From the NCBI GenBank assembly GCA_002281555.1, contig NCGJ01000005.1, forward strand, positions 62,001 through 126,000: 64,000 nt of DNA, written 5' to 3'. The notes beneath the pieces were generated by a model. It saw only the letters and a list, made by a program, of their open reading frames with translations, did not search any database and was not told the origin of the DNA. Both the position numbers and the translations under genes were made by a program. The stretch is from Hydrogenophilales bacterium 28-61-23 (lineage in GTDB: Bacteria > Pseudomonadota > Gammaproteobacteria > Burkholderiales > Thiobacillaceae). This document shows positions 7,240 to 12,604 of the stretch, in pieces (within the stretch, counting starts at the first letter, position 1; every line of letters begins with the position of its first letter).

Positions 7240-8481
7240 TCAGCGATCCAGCAGCGTGATCCAGTGCACCACCGGCACGGCGCTGGCGGCGGCGAGGTGG
7301 CTTTGGCAGCCGATATTGGCGCTGGCGATGAGTTCCGGCTCGCGTGCCTGCAGATTGGCCAGCTTGCGCGCGCGCAACTGGCCGGACAGTTCCGGCTGCA
7401 ATATCGAATAGGTGCCGGCCGAGCCGCAGCACAGATGCGCTTCATCCACCGGCAGCAGCTCGTAACCGGCGCGGGTCAGGATGTTTTCGATGACGCCGCG
7501 CAGTTTTTGCCCATGTTGCAGGCTGCACGGCGGATGGAACGCGATGCGTTTCGATTTCACGGCGGGCGGCGGCTTCAGGTTCAATGAACTCAAGTCTTCG
7601 TCGCGCAGCACTTCGGCCAGATCGCGGGTCAGCGCGGAAACGCGCGCGGCCTTGTCGGCATAGGCCGGATCGTGGCGCAGATGATGGCCGTATTCCTTGA
7701 CCGTGCTGCCGCAGCCGCTGGCCGTCATCACGATGGCTTCGATGTTGTTTTCAAGATGCGGCCACCAGGCGTCGATGTTGCGGCGCATCGCGGCTTTGGC
7801 CGCCTCCGGCGCGGCCAGATGCTGGTCGATGGCGCCGCAGCAACCGGCCTCCGGCGCGGAAAAAAGCCCGATGCCCAGCCGCGCCAGCACACGCGCGGCG
7901 GCGGCGTTGATTTCCGGGGCCAGACCGGGCTGCACACAGCCTTCCAGCACCAGCATGCGCCGGCCCATTGTTTTGTCGTTCGGCGCGCGCCGTCCGACGC
8001 CTCCGGCGGCGTTATGGGCTGTCGGCGGCAGATGTTGGCGCAACGCCGGCGGCAACAGCCCGCGCACGCTTTGCCCCAGTTTCAACATCGCTCCGAACAG
8101 CGCCGGCGATTGCAGCCCCTTGCGCAACCCCACGCGCAGCAGCCGCTCGCCTGCCGGGCGCGGACTGAGTTGCTCGACGACATCGCGGCCGATGTCGATC
8201 AGACGGCCGTATTGCACGCCGGACGGGCAGGTGGTTTCGCAATTGCGGCAGCTCAGACAGCGGTCCAGATGCAATCGGGTCACTGCGCCGACCGGCTGAC
8301 CTTCCAGCATCTGCTTGATCAGATAGATGCGCCCGCGCGGCCCGTCCAGCTCGTCGCCGAGCAGTTGGTAGGTCGGGCAGGTGGCGTTGCAGAAGCCGCA
8401 ATGCACGCAACTGCGCAGGATGGCTTCGGCTTCCTGGCCTTGCGCGCTGTCGCGGATAAAGTCGGCAAGATTGGTTTGCAT
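7240..8481 (-). CDS. glcF: Glycolate oxidase iron-sulfur subunit GlcF
   Basis: This electron-transfer subunit of membrane-associated glycolate oxidase passes electrons from the FAD subunits GlcD and GlcE towards quinones. The 413-aa protein has two N-terminal 4Fe-4S ferredoxin motifs (CVHCGFCNATCP and CLSCRNCETTCP) and two C-terminal CCG domains (EAGCCGAIDQH and HLCCGSAGTYS). Its ATG overlaps the glcE stop (TAATG), which indicates translational coupling. It is the last gene of the operon. Confidence 0.96.
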   Translation of the reverse strand: MQTNLADFIRDSAQGQEAEAILRSCVHCGFCNATCPTYQLLGDELDGPRGRIYLIKQMLEGQPVGAVTRLHLDRCLSCRNCETTCPSGVQYGRLIDIGRDVVEQLSPRPAGERLLRVGLRKGLQSPALFGAMLKLGQSVRGLLPPALRQHLPPTAHNAAGGVGRRAPNDKTMGRRMLVLEGCVQPGLAPEINAAAARVLARLGIGLFSAPEAGCCGAIDQHLAAPEAAKAAMRRNIDAWWPHLENNIEAIVMTASGCGSTVKEYGHHLRHDPAYADKAARVSALTRDLAEVLRDEDLSSLNLKPPPAVKSKRIAFHPPCSLQHGQKLRGVIENILTRAGYELLPVDEAHLCCGSAGTYSILQPELSGQLRARKLANLQAREPELIASANIGCQSHLAAASAVPVVHWITLLDR

Positions 8482-9689
8482 TACAACTCCGGGTACAGGC
8501 GGCCGGGATTGAAGACGGCGTGCGGGTCGAGCGCTTGTTTCACGCGTTGGTGCAAGGCCAGCATGGCCGGCTGCAGCGGCTGGAAGACCTCATCAACACC
8601 GGCGTGATTGCGGAATAGCGTGGCATGACCGCCGAGTGCGCCAACACGCTGGCGCAGCGCTTTGGCCGGCAGCTCGGAAATCAACCAACGTTGCGCGCCG
8701 TTCCATTCGATGAGTTCGCTGCCCGGCAGATTGAGGCTGGGCGCGGCGGGCGGCAGCGAGATTCGCCAGAGCGGCAGATCGGTCTGGAAGAAGGGCAAGG
8801 TTTGGTCGCGCGCGGCGGCCCAGATCTCCGGGTCGGCTGCCTCGCCACCCAGCGAGTCGGCGGCCATTTCGACGCAACGCGAACTGGCCGACAGGCGCAG
8901 ATACAAGCGGCCATCGAGTTCCAGGCTGGCGCTGACCGGCATCCCCGAAGTGGGGGTATTTGCAGGTCGGCCGCCGGTTTCGAACACCAGCGTGCGTTCG
9001 CAAGCCGGACGCGGCAACACTTTGATCGACACTTCCAGCAACACGCCCAGCGTGCCCATTGCGCCGACCATCAGGCGGGAAACGTCATAGCCGGCGACGT
9101 TCTTCATGACCTGGCCGCCCAGGCACAGCACCTCGCCGCGTCCGTTCAGCAATTTGACGCCGAGCACCGCGTCGCGCACCGCGCCGCCCCAGGGCCGGCG
9201 CGGACCGGACAGGCCGGTGGCAACCATGCCGCCAAGCGTGGCCGCGTTTTGCCCCCTCCCCCGCTGGGGGAGGGCTGGGGAGAGGGCGTTTGTGCTGAGC
9301 AGGTCCGAACTGCTCTCCCTCTCCCTCTCCCTCTCTGGTGGGGCTACCAGCCCACCGACTAGGCCGCCAAAAAGCGCCGGCCAAGTCTCTGGCTGCCCCA
9401 ACCCCTCCCCCGCTTGCGGGGGAGGGGAGAAATGCGGCGGCTCGAACGGCAGCATCTGATTGTTCGCCGCCAGCGCGGCTTCGATTTCCGCCAGCGGCGT
9501 GCCGGCGCGGGCCGTGATGACCAGTTCGGTGGGGTCGTAGGCAACGATGCCACGCAGCCCGGAGACATCCAATGCCTCGCCGACGCAGGCGCGGCCATAG
9601 AACGCTTTGCTGCCGCCGGCGCGGATGCACAGCGGTGTCTGGCTGGCGATGGCCTGTTTGACACGTTCGATCAGCTCGGCTTCTTCCAT
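8481..9689 (-). CDS. glcE: Glycolate oxidase subunit GlcE with an in-frame repeat-derived insertion
   Basis: This FAD-binding subunit of glycolate oxidase is 402 aa long, against about 350 for the family. The FAD_binding_4 fold is visible as CIRAGGSKAFYGR, QMLPFEPPHF and ATLGGMVATGLSGPRRPW. Normally only a few residues separate PPHF from ATLGG. Here about 60 residues (roughly 88-147) intervene, encoded by 9251-9430, which consists of two inverted palindromic repeats around a CTCTCC hexamer tract. The frame stays open. The ATG at 9689 begins 5 bp after glcD. Whether the extra loop is tolerated is not known. Confidence 0.93.
   Translation of the reverse strand: MEEAELIERVKQAIASQTPLCIRAGGSKAFYGRACVGEALDVSGLRGIVAYDPTELVITARAGTPLAEIEAALAANNQMLPFEPPHFSPPPQAGEGLGQPETWPALFGGLVGGLVAPPERERERESSSDLLSTNALSPALPQRGRGQNAATLGGMVATGLSGPRRPWGGAVRDAVLGVKLLNGRGEVLCLGGQVMKNVAGYDVSRLMVGAMGTLGVLLEVSIKVLPRPACERTLVFETGGRPANTPTSGMPVSASLELDGRLYLRLSASSRCVEMAADSLGGEAADPEIWAAARDQTLPFFQTDLPLWRISLPPAAPSLNLPGSELIEWNGAQRWLISELPAKALRQRVGALGGHATLFRNHAGVDEVFQPLQPAMLALHQRVKQALDPHAVFNPGRLYPEL
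9251..9430. repeat. Composite palindromic element inserted inside glcE
   Basis: Hairpin CCCTCCCC..GGGGGAGGG at 9254-9274 is followed by TGGGGAGAGGG. A second hairpin at 9402-9427 (CCCCTCCCCCGC-TT-GCGGGGGAGGGG) is preceded by CCCC on the other side, so the two copies point in opposite directions. Between them is a CTCTCC hexamer tract (9313-9336). A third copy lies at 12567-12604. This is a REP/BIME-like dispersed repeat. Confidence 0.85.
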
Positions 9690-9694
9690 ATTGC

Positions 9695-11158
9695 TCAAAA
9701 CCTCGGCAATTCCGGGAACGGCAACGCGCCGCCATGCACATGCATGCGGCCCATTTCGGCGCAGCGGTGCAAGGTCGGCACGGCCTTGCCCGGGTTGAGC
9801 AGGCCGTCCGGATCGAACGCGGCCTTGATCGCGTGGAACTGGGCCAGTTCTTCCGGCGTGAACTGGCTGCAGGCGGCATCCAGTTTCTCGACGCCGATGC
9901 CATGTTCGCCGGTGACCGTGCCGCCGACTTCGACGCACAGCTTGAGGATGTCGGTGCCGAACGCTTCGGCGCGATGCAGTTCATCCGGCCGGTTGGCGTC
10001 GAACAGGATCAACGGATGCAGGTTGCCGTCGCCGGCATGAAACACATTGGCGACGCGCAGGCCGTATTGCGTGGAAAGCTCGCCGATGCGGCCGAGCACG
10101 CGGGCCAGATGCCGGCGCGGAATGGTGCCGTCCATGCAGTAATAATCGGGCGAGATGCGGCCCACCGCCGGGAACGCGCCCTTGCGTCCGGCCCAGAATT
10201 TCAGGCGCTGGGCCTCGTCTTCCGCCGTGCGCACTTCGACCGCGCCGGCCGCAAGCAGGATTTCACGCAACGCCAGAATCTGTTCGGAAACCTCGGCGTT
10301 GGAGCCGTCCAGCTCGCATAACAGAATGGCGGCGGCATCGACCGGATAGCCCGCATGGACGAAATCCTCGGCGGCGCGAATGGACAGGTTGTCCATCATT
10401 TCCAACCCGGCCGGCAGCAGCCCCGCGCCGATGATTTTCGCCACCGCCGCGCCCGCCGTTTCGACCGAGTCGAACGCCGCCAGCACGACTTGCGCGCGTT
10501 CCGGCTTGAGCAGCAGTTTGACGCTGACTTCGACCACGATGCCGAGTAGGCCTTCCGACCCGGTCATCAGCGCGAGCAGATCGTAGCCGGGGCTGTCCAG
10601 CGCGCCGGGTTTGCCGCACGCGCCGATTTCCAGCAGTTCGCCGTCGATGGTCAACACCTTCAGCGCCAGCAGGTTGTGCACGGTCAGCCCGTATTTCAGG
10701 CAATGCACGCCGCCGGAGTTTTCCGCCACATTGCCGCCGATGGAGCAGGCGATCTGCGACGACGGATCGGGCGCGTAATACAGGCCGAGGTGGGCGACGG
10801 CCTCGGAAATGGCCAGGTTGCGCACCCCGGGCTGCACGCGGGCGAGGCGATTTTCGGGGTCGATTTCCAGGATGCGGTTGAAGCGCGCCAGCGACAGCAC
10901 GATGCCATCGGCCAGCGGCAACGCGCCGCCGGACAAACCGGTGCCGGCGCCGCGCGCGACCACGGGAACCCGATGTTCGCGACATGCCCGCAACACCGCT
11001 TGCGCTTGTTCCAGCGTTTCCGGCAGGCACACCGCCAGCGGCACTTGCCGATAGGCGGAAAGGCCGTCGCACTCGTAGGGGCGCAGCGCCTCGGCTTCGA
11101 TCAGCAGCGCATGGGCCGGCAGGGCCGCGCGCAGGTCGGCGAGGAAGGCAGGATTCAT
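9695..11158 (-). CDS. glcD: Glycolate oxidase subunit GlcD
   Basis: This catalytic FAD subunit oxidises glycolate to glyoxylate. The 487-aa protein has the FAD_binding_4 motif VARGAGTGLSGGALP, IGGNVAENSGGVHCLKYG and the C-terminal oxidase domain with HAGDGNLHP and GTVTGEHGIGVEK. The ATG at 11158 gives the usual start MNPAFLADLRAALP; a longer frame upstream is a shadow of the kinase gene. It lies 29 bp downstream of the kinase gene and 5 bp upstream of glcE, so it belongs to one operon. Confidence 0.97.
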   Translation of the reverse strand: MNPAFLADLRAALPAHALLIEAEALRPYECDGLSAYRQVPLAVCLPETLEQAQAVLRACREHRVPVVARGAGTGLSGGALPLADGIVLSLARFNRILEIDPENRLARVQPGVRNLAISEAVAHLGLYYAPDPSSQIACSIGGNVAENSGGVHCLKYGLTVHNLLALKVLTIDGELLEIGACGKPGALDSPGYDLLALMTGSEGLLGIVVEVSVKLLLKPERAQVVLAAFDSVETAGAAVAKIIGAGLLPAGLEMMDNLSIRAAEDFVHAGYPVDAAAILLCELDGSNAEVSEQILALREILLAAGAVEVRTAEDEAQRLKFWAGRKGAFPAVGRISPDYYCMDGTIPRRHLARVLGRIGELSTQYGLRVANVFHAGDGNLHPLILFDANRPDELHRAEAFGTDILKLCVEVGGTVTGEHGIGVEKLDAACSQFTPEELAQFHAIKAAFDPDGLLNPGKAVPTLHRCAEMGRMHVHGGALPFPELPRF

Positions 11159-11187
11159 TTGCTGGCTGCGCTTTGCATGGCGACCGA

Positions 11188-12543
11188 TTATGCCGAAAGC
11201 CTGCGATACGCCGTCGCCAGCGCGGCGTCGTCGCCGACATTGCCGGGGAAGATCACCACCGGCAGATCGGGATAGCGCGGATGATCGGCCGGGCAGCGCA
11301 CCACAGAGCAACCGGGCAGGATCTGGCCAAGAACGGTCGAAGTCTTCAGCGCGAGGCCGTCGGACAGCACGTCGTTGGACGTGATGCCGCCCTTGCCGAT
11401 CAGGAAACCCAGCGTCGTCGGCAGGCCGCGCACCACATCCATCAAGAAGCTCGAAACCGCCTCGCCGAAGGCCAGGCGCGTGGCCTGGTCGGCAAACTGG
11501 CGCTCGACGCGGCTGGTGTAAACGACGCACGTTGAACCAGCGGCATGCGCCCGCGCGGCTTGATCGAGCACGCTTTGCAGCAAGGCCGCGCGCGCCGGCT
11601 CGATGCGAGCGACATCGACTTCAATGCCGACGATGCCGGGTTCGGCCAGCAGCTTTTCCAGTTGCGCCGTGGTTTTTTTGACATGCGAGCCGACGATGAC
11701 CGCGCCCGGTTTGTTGTCGCGGACATATACCCGCATCGCCTCCGGCGCGACCGGCTGCGGCGGCAGTTTGGCCAGCGCGGTGAGCAGGCTGGCGGCGGAG
11801 CGGAACAGGAAGCGCTTGCCGCGCGCAGCGGCGGCCTGGAGTTGATCGGCGAAATGGTTCAGATCGGCCTGGGTTTCGGCATCGACCACGCAGCAGCGGT
11901 TGCCGTGCAATGCCATCAGCCTTGCCGAGACATCGCCGCGCACGTCTTCCAGCAGAAAGCGTTCGACCTCGCCCGCCTTGATCCGGCCAGCGGTCTTTTC
12001 CTCGACGTAATCGGGCAGATAACTGTGCCGGTAGCCGAATACCGAATCGCGCGCGAATTCGGTTTCATGCACCGGTTTGGGCACGTTGTCGACCATCAGG
12101 TAGTGCATGCTGTTGCGGGTGTAGCGGCCGCCCTCGAAGAATGCGGGGATCAGGAAATGGGCGTCGAAGTTTGCACCCTCGCCACCCAAACCCGGGCCGA
12201 GCTCTTCCGCCATCGCATCGGTTTCCACCGGGTAATGGCCGCGCAAAGTGGAATCGGATCGGCTGACGAAAATCGGATTGAACACCTTGCCGCCGGCGGC
12301 CAGATCGGCCAGCGCCAGTTTCAGGTTGCGGCAGACCTCGCGCGTGGTGCTGGCGGCGCGCGTCGCGTCCATGCCGCGCGTATTGGTCAGTACAAAGAAC
12401 AACGGCGAGGGGTTTGGCAACGACGTGTCGAGCAACGCCGCCTGCAAAGTAGGTGCATCCCAACGCGTCAGCAACTGGCAGGAATGCACCGTCTGCGAAC
12501 CGGTCGGATCGTCGTCGAGAACGATGATTTTGGTTTGGGTCAT
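11188..12543 (-). CDS. Four-carbon acid sugar kinase (DUF1537/OtnK-DtnK type)
   Basis: This ATP-dependent kinase of about 451 aa belongs to the family that phosphorylates C4 sugar acids such as threonate and erythronate. Family marks are the N-terminal VLDDDPTGSQTVHS and SDSTLRGHYPVE and the C-terminal nucleotide-binding part LIGKGGITSNDVL and VIFPGNVGDD. The ATG at 12543 is preferred because GGAAG sits just ahead of it; an upstream ATG would add five residues. The usual partners in C4-acid pathways (aldolase OtnC, isomerase OtnI, PdxA2-like dehydrogenase) are absent. Here it sits between a transketolase-like gene and glcDEF, so its substrate is open. Confidence 0.88.
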   Translation of the reverse strand: MTQTKIIVLDDDPTGSQTVHSCQLLTRWDAPTLQAALLDTSLPNPSPLFFVLTNTRGMDATRAASTTREVCRNLKLALADLAAGGKVFNPIFVSRSDSTLRGHYPVETDAMAEELGPGLGGEGANFDAHFLIPAFFEGGRYTRNSMHYLMVDNVPKPVHETEFARDSVFGYRHSYLPDYVEEKTAGRIKAGEVERFLLEDVRGDVSARLMALHGNRCCVVDAETQADLNHFADQLQAAAARGKRFLFRSAASLLTALAKLPPQPVAPEAMRVYVRDNKPGAVIVGSHVKKTTAQLEKLLAEPGIVGIEVDVARIEPARAALLQSVLDQAARAHAAGSTCVVYTSRVERQFADQATRLAFGEAVSSFLMDVVRGLPTTLGFLIGKGGITSNDVLSDGLALKTSTVLGQILPGCSVVRCPADHPRYPDLPVVIFPGNVGDDAALATAYRRLSA

Positions 12544-12566
12544 GGCGCTTCCATTCATCTATTAAG

Positions 12567-12604
12567 CCCCTCCCCCGCAGGCGGGGGAGGGGTTGGGGAG
12601 AGGG
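12567..12604. repeat. Third copy of the GC-rich palindromic repeat
   Basis: CCCCTCCCCCGC-AG-GCGGGGGAGGGG followed by TTGGGGAGAGGG fills almost the entire gap between the transketolase-like gene and the kinase gene. It is the same repeat that is inserted twice in glcE. Confidence 0.85.

Follow-up and report, generated by a model that had tools for sequence, protein, structure and literature searches.

Palindromic repeats that enter genes in frame include the Rickettsia palindromic elements (RPE), which were reportedly described by Ogata in 2000 and 2002. The element analysed here is a composite palindromic insert lying in frame within glcE, the gene of glycolate oxidase subunit GlcE, in a stretch of 64,000 nucleotides from Hydrogenophilales bacterium 28-61-23 (contig NCGJ01000005.1, positions 62,001 to 126,000 of the forward strand), hereafter called the window. 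According to passages of PMC10969869, RPE are palindromic repeats of about 150 bp that lie in frame in unrelated genes, a feature which the repeats described here have in common with them. However, the latter use several reading frames, form GC-rich hairpins of the repetitive extragenic palindromic (REP) type and have an associated nuclease gene, and their host belongs to a beta-proteobacterial genus whose named records are metagenome-assembled genomes (MAGs). An earlier sequence-only reading of the window held palindromic elements of this kind to be known mainly from Rickettsia-like genomes, which is too narrow a view, since, according to passages of Di Nocera 2013 (PMC3733652), REPs lie inside genes of many species, those of PolA, Uvr proteins and tRNA synthetases among them.

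The GTAG/CGTC-tagged REPs treated in those passages of PMC3733652 resemble ours in that REPs and REP dimers lie in open reading frames (ORFs), often of DNA-repair and tRNA-synthetase genes, and in that a same-site case is given for Xanthomonas recB; they differ in their tag, which is missing here, and in the candidate mobiliser, which is a different one here. The words CCCTC, GAGGG and Vsr are absent from the main text of PMC3733652. The REPtron/REPIN systems, which go with a REP-associated tyrosine transposase (RAYT, or TnpA-REP) of the HUH type, likewise have a single small gene enclosed by REPs and, dispersed elsewhere, REPs that are non-autonomous, as set out in passages of PMC8266576; in contrast, the small gene here encodes a Vsr-like DUF559 nuclease rather than a Y1 transposase, there is no GTAG motif and the cassettes lie in frame in coding sequences. 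DUF559 is a domain of Vsr-like PD-(D/E)XK endonucleases according to passages on a Caulobacter protein (PMC12907096), and this protein, VsrA, is needed there for a DNA-damage response. A description of DUF559 joined to palindromes was not found by title or abstract start in the open-licence literature, subscription papers being outside this scope, so that a prior description is possible. Two papers of that literature contain both DUF559 and the word "palindromic", and their titles point to quorum sensing/CRISPR and to NAD metabolism.

That the GlcE insertion is a new case of the known intragenic REPs is well supported; the unexpected part is the DUF559 link and not the intragenic REP itself. 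With a nuclease gene between the repeats and a repeat type that follows the nuclease tree, the question of mobilisation becomes directly testable. The link would suggest a role for DUF559 proteins, would show a mobile element entering important genes (leuS, murE, polA) by leaving the frame open, and would provide a route for selfish DNA to write new protein segments outside Rickettsia. We consider it rather probable that the GlcE insert is a non-autonomous bacterial interspersed mosaic element (BIME) of a mobile family bounded by REPs, whose full form would be REP > DUF559 < REP and whose movement would be driven by the nuclease. A broader proposal, on which we are evenly divided, is that of an apparently undescribed and widespread class of element in which a Vsr-like DUF559 gene, bounded by cognate untagged REPs, would home in frame into coding sequences without splicing, its nuclease-less derivatives being the CCCTCYCCC-type REPs and BIMEs of Pseudomonadota, the GlcE insert included.

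Structure and dispersal of the GlcE insert

The insert, its carrier gene and its parts are as follows, with positions counted along the window.

8481..9689, minus strand: glcE, glycolate oxidase subunit GlcE, 402 aa, carrier of the insert (NCBIfam NF008439, E 4.7e-140, and Pfam FAD_binding_4, each matching in two stretches; the larger NCBIfam stretch pairs residues 148-402 with profile positions 94-358)
9249..9429, minus strand: whole composite palindromic insert, in frame within GlcE residues 88-149, missing in 27/29 aligned GlcE; a dispersed repeat
9249..9286, plus strand: REP unit 1, a hairpin with a TGGGGAGAGGG tail, of the form seen in 34 oriented REP units from stretches of this genome
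9287..9312, no strand: BIME spacer, by eye with no visible sharing with the GlcE insert of G019
9313..9336, no strand: CTCTCC tract, probably expanded REP-tail sequence, overlapping the end of the nested repeat
9332..9395, minus strand: nested "core" repeat of about 65 bp, set into the REP tail at its TTGGGG / GAGAGGG junction, with 11 copies in the genome and matches in 16/23 genus genomes
9396..9429, minus strand: REP unit 2, a hairpin with perfect 12-bp arms at 9402-9413 and 9416-9427 (inverted-repeat search and sequence)

Here and below, G000 is the window's own genome, other G numbers are congeners or further Pseudomonadota genomes, and L numbers are loci. The interval between EPPHF and ATLGG counts 62 residues in the window GlcE vs 3 in G013, the nearest relative with a GlcE, which makes a net gain of 59 residues. 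Among the other GlcE rows aligned (n = 29, with duplicate loci L001 and L048 set aside), the two that do have an insert at this site are congeners with other inserts; in the named GlcE loci the site motif was matched in 57 of 80, and clear inserts among these occur only in the same two congener genomes. The glcE loci of twelve congeners are identical to named records, the MAG records including Betaproteobacteria bacterium bin_127 (G013), Gallionellaceae bacterium STA_18 (G019) and Hydrogenophilales bacterium nzgw566 (G022). The sequence-only reading had proposed an in-frame palindromic insertion of about 180 bp splitting the flavin adenine dinucleotide (FAD)-binding segment of GlcE, and this is what we find; an outcome by which it would have failed, relatives of the same length with unrelated sequence, is not what the alignment gives. 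Its description of two hairpins around a CTCTCC tract is right as well, although it overlooked the separate core repeat between the tract and the second hairpin. The gene that carries the insertion still looks functional. Two further points escaped that reading, namely that other species have inserts at this site as well and that such repeats are associated with DUF559 nuclease genes.

In each REP a TGGGGGAGAGGG-type tail comes after a GC-rich hairpin, and in unit 2 the core interrupts this tail. The two REPs face inward in inverted orientation with a spacer between them, which is the arrangement of a BIME. Beside the perfect 12-bp hairpin, longer imperfect inverted-repeat pairs join 9248-9286 to 9313-9432. 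By eye, the core occupies the same REP-tail junction in the GlcE insert and in other copies. No GTAG, CTAC, CGTC or GACG stands within 8 nt of the stem in any of the 34 oriented REP units. The core consensus (e.g. window 9332-9395, L005) has a GTAG beside its outer stem, so that the nested repeat may itself be a REP of the RAYT type with REP tails as its target. As RNA, the insert folds at -124 kcal/mol (z = -5.8, with 0/200 shuffles equally stable), and an Rfam scan of the element in L005 and L002 gave no RNA family on the element itself; a guanidine-II riboswitch (Rfam RF01068, above gathering score) lies at L002:1666-1713, between the BIME and a carboxylase gene, probably that of urea carboxylase. 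A REP unit is open in 6/6 frames (shuffle mean 5.1) and the whole insert in 3/6 (1.8 in shuffles), which makes these open frames only weakly special.

In its own genome the insert gives 47 match rows (40 of 45 first-look candidates scored), 4 of which overlap others, and the remaining 43 fall into 32 places; it is matched at least once in each of the 23 genus genomes searched, its own counted. Such numbers are far higher than chance would give. At 12 of the 32 places the match lies in frame, within ten genes whose products were identified by NCBIfam and Pfam: GlcE, LeuS, MurE, HsdR, CobQ, CobT, urea carboxylase, HypF, UvrC and PolA. A search for the same element inside other genes, as suggested by the sequence-only reading, thus gives at least nine more of them. 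MurE holds two copies of the core, and HsdR accounts for three places, in fragments that open contigs C17 and C23 and probably belong to one gene. The core alone is present in its 11 copies at 8 sites of G000. As with RPE, we are dealing with a palindromic dispersed repeat in frame in functional genes; a single conserved peptide or reading frame for the family was not found. Indeed, GlcE reads the core in another frame than do LeuS, HsdR and most of the further copies seen, and in MurE, L187 and L253 the core is read from the opposite strand. A codon-position heuristic makes 19 of 65 unique core copies look intragenic (at least L243 doubtfully, since both strands passed), and our intragenic claims rest on hosts confirmed by family and not on this heuristic; L143, a candidate intragenic case, was dropped as it has no Pfam match.

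DUF559 genes between inverted repeats

Beyond REP and core, the CobT insert of G012 encloses a complete in-frame DUF559 domain between REPs, in an ORF of 570 aa. An inverted-repeat score of at least 25, a threshold picked after the first genus results, was reached around DUF559 at 12 of 19 genus loci (19 of the 23 matches listed, E below 1e-29) and at 18 of 30 phylum loci (those of the best DUF559 matches, from 48 of 150 Pseudomonadota genomes with a match, 13 of them weak), that is at 30/49, so that the order REP-DUF559-REP is found for the family, although the copy in the window has no such gene. Controls gave 0/98 for shifted pseudo-genes in the same loci, 0/29 for GlcE, 0/21 for LeuS, 1/8 for CobT and, for Y1-transposase loci, 1/4 in the genus and 0/2 for the further ones in G000; HNH nuclease loci of the same 150 genomes (30 among the matches listed, with a domain shorter than DUF559) gave 0/30, also at 450-base flanks. 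Alignment residues D47, E58 and H64 are kept in 49, 49 and 48 of the 49 DUF559 rows. With strict patterns required on both sides, 5 of the 19 genus loci have REPs of type A (CCCTCYCCC) and 6 have REPs of type B (CCCCCCTTT...AAAGGGGGG).

On the DUF559 tree, a quick one with Shimodaira-Hasegawa-like approximate likelihood ratio test (SH-aLRT) support only and 26/46 inner branches open, the REP type, scored in three states, requires 5 changes (mean over shuffles 16.7; 0/200 as low), and 1 change once the REP-less rows are dropped, the A and B classes being set by our own patterns and weaker "c" flanks being scored as A. Ten type-B rows and one REP-less row (L306) form a clade (SH-aLRT 99), and seven type-A rows form another (SH-aLRT 95), with the genus type-A rows L267 and L270 outside it. 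Three genomes (G011, G019 and G020) each contain DUF559 genes of both types with matching repeats, so that genome background does not explain the match between REP and DUF559. At the level of whole genomes, the REP-tail pattern has at least 5 matches in 26 of the 150 and strong DUF559 is present in 35, and 19 genomes combine the two (Fisher p = 2e-9). With genomes merged into families, the counts become 11/5/8/26 (p = 0.004). When the pattern count had to be at least twice that of a backward control, 23 genomes were retained, 17 of them with DUF559 (p = 2e-8). The association of DUF559 with REPs is statistically strong.

Host domains and an in-frame DUF559 were found in one ORF, by Pfam and NCBIfam, for CobT (G012), HsdR (G019), a PglX-like methyltransferase (G008), YgiQ (G014), RecG (G011) and, in another family, HsdM (G069). 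In the RecG case, two RecG models are matched, at positions 22-423 by residues 11-404 and at positions 416-691 by residues 552-827; in the HsdM case, the host match is mostly on the N-terminal side. Inteins and homing-endonuclease genes also place a nuclease gene in frame in conserved hosts with no evident target duplication; the DUF559 gene here is likewise in frame in such hosts, and no clear target duplication was seen by eye. They differ from the present cassettes in that no Hint/intein family was found in the six in-frame DUF559 hosts (Pfam, E 0.001), the protein here is presumably unspliced, the ends are REP palindromes and dispersed remnants exist. In CobT, the cassette of G012 and a lone REP of G000 occupy the same site, which is what one would see if REPs and BIMEs had arisen from cassettes by deletion.

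Two neighbouring observations concern the same genes. A REP-flanked DUF559 gene (L270, G020 C3:107855-108166) stands directly upstream of the glcE of G020, and the cobT gene of G022 (L295) has, in both flanks, a long inverted repeat that belongs to another hairpin family (GTGGGAGCGGGCTTGCCCGCGA type).

Protein sites occupied more than once

The GlcE site contains 62 residues in G000, 35 in G019 and 10 in G005, three separate lineages that require 3 changes over 17 genomes, and in LeuS the VEIHFPL-VLKVF loop is replaced by REP-derived sequence in 8/21 genomes with 5 changes, these changes being counted on an IQ-TREE tree, some branches of which are weak (two forks have bootstrap values of 31 and 39). 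CobT is present in 12 genomes and its site was resolved by motif in 10 (left out: G001 and G015): type A or A-like REPs are found in G000, G011 and G012, the different palindrome of type B in G006, G016 and G019, short GC-rich remnants in G022 and G017 and an unclassified insert in G010, and there is no insert in G002. The occurrence of two unrelated repeat families at one site indicates a tolerance of the protein loop and not target choice alone. In PolA, G000 has a BIME and the corresponding sequence of G018, judged by eye, has a BIME with the core at that position; the pair offers a view of nesting. Against empty congeners, no clear target-site duplication was seen by eye at GlcE, LeuS or CobT, and local bases seem replaced.

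Other inserts were noticed in the same proteins. Near residue 280 of the window GlcE, a different in-frame repeat (RSHAGAWER / RSHAGAVRSHAGAWER) is present in L015 (G019) and L023 (G010), and a segment of about 25 extra residues lies at another GlcE site in G004 (L026), so that GlcE has several insertion-tolerant loops. The peptide SRSPGxPKxDLAPSxGxS is in frame at two further LeuS sites, in L209 and L221 (G007, G008) and in L207 (G011), and this repeat is probably a third element family. The LeuS inserts of the distant congeners G007 (L209) and G014 (L208) have a sub-sequence in common, for which either a transfer of the insert or an old common origin could account.

Movement of the repeats and state of the host gene

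The most likely reading is that DUF559 moves the repeats. The DUF559 protein, as a Vsr-like PD-(D/E)XK nuclease, would cut at or near the target or at REP hairpins, and the break would be repaired by copying in the element, with a few local bases replaced and no evident target duplication. Elements without the nuclease gene (BIMEs and single REPs) would be moved in trans or left as remnants, and selection would keep only in-frame copies in tolerant loops, which would be why the same sites are hit again. Several points weigh against this reading. No cut site or target duplication is seen, and the activity of DUF559 on REPs is putative. Strong DUF559 is missing from 7 of the 26 REP-rich genomes, and G000 itself, with 33 pattern matches, has no DUF559 match and hence no resident DUF559 unless one is missing from the 98%-complete assembly; conversely, 16 of the 35 genomes with strong DUF559 have fewer than 5 pattern matches. 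Inverted repeats are lacking at 19 of the 49 DUF559 loci, and strict type A is present on both sides in only 10/30 phylum loci, many others having variants such as CCTTCYCCC. In some REP-rich genomes the backward control pattern is common too, and in G185 its count is the same as the forward one; this and the share of strict patterns slightly weaken the genome-level and architecture arguments. Finally, Y1 genes occur in 17/23 genus genomes, so that a RAYT-like mover is conceivable, and the Y1 transposase locus of G019 (L198) has a long inverted repeat, of a sequence unrelated to these REPs.

The REPs could instead be hotspots or landing platforms with DUF559 genes as passengers or as defence or repair genes, the REPs themselves spreading by an unknown route, e.g. 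replication slippage or ectopic recombination. We judge this unlikely: the REP-rich genomes without strong DUF559, the window's own included, fit it, but HNH genes of the same genomes show no inverted-repeat pairs, the REP type and the DUF559 tree vary together even inside one genome, and the cassettes lie in frame inside genes, with the CobT site also used by a lone REP. An ordinary intragenic REP or BIME moved by a RAYT (Y1, HUH), as for the GTAG-tagged REPs, with DUF559 genes as unrelated neighbours, is in our opinion decidedly unlikely. Intragenic REPs are already known, the Y1_Tnp genes of the genus include 3 matches in G000, and the Y1 genes of L198 and L200 have REP-like strings at a distance of about 1.4 kb; against this stand the lack of tags in the oriented REP units, the G000 locus L199 without a REP-like string, the inverted-repeat scores of only 9 and 13 at the other two Y1 loci of G000, and the fact that it is DUF559 that is flanked by REPs of this family. 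The REPtron arrangement, in which copies of the same REP stand on both sides of a Y1 transposase gene, was sought in 6 Y1 loci (4 among the genus matches listed and 2 further ones of G000) and found in none.

Whichever agent moves the repeats, GlcE seems to accommodate its insert. AlphaFold2, run on the window GlcE with 37 relatives, gives mostly confident folds flanking the insert, with a predicted local distance difference test (pLDDT) value below 50 at residues 95-116 and 118-147, and the best Foldseek matches in the PDB are flavoproteins of the D-lactate dehydrogenase type. Computed without the insert, the ratio of nonsynonymous to synonymous substitution rates (dN/dS) of glcE is 0.17 for G000-G013, 0.23 for G000-G002 and G000-G004 and 0.26 for G000-G021, and insert-free pairs of the same group give 0.20-0.26, or 0.30-0.38 with G021. 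With G021 as outgroup, 12 amino-acid changes fall on the G000 side vs 20 on the G013 side, hence no excess in G000; with the farther outgroup G006 the order is reversed (G000 19, G013 12). From these comparisons glcE appears to be under constraint and still looks functional, which argues against a dead gene, the date of the insertion being beyond the reach of this test. The added peptide probably forms a disordered loop that is neutral and serves no function in GlcE. Its recruitment for a function in GlcE, as a domesticated loop, would agree with a frame kept open in a host gene under purifying selection; it is nevertheless very improbable, given inserts of different kinds and lengths at one site in three species, a segment modelled as disordered and reading frames that vary between host genes. 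An assembly artefact or a glcE pseudogene is hardly credible, because although the sequence comes from a single assembly of 30 contigs, the frame is open throughout, the dN/dS against G013 is low and the LeuS insert of G000 is also present in the separate genome G012, so that inserts of such kind are real in the group.

The remaining features around glcE are the following.

12567..12604, plus strand: another REP of this family, a short distance upstream of the next minus-strand ORF, 11188-12558 (repeat match and ORF list)
7240..8481, minus strand: ORF of the downstream iron-sulphur subunit gene, presumably glcF-like (ORF list)
9695..11530, minus strand: ORF with the upstream operon gene, presumably glcD-like by its motifs (ORF list)
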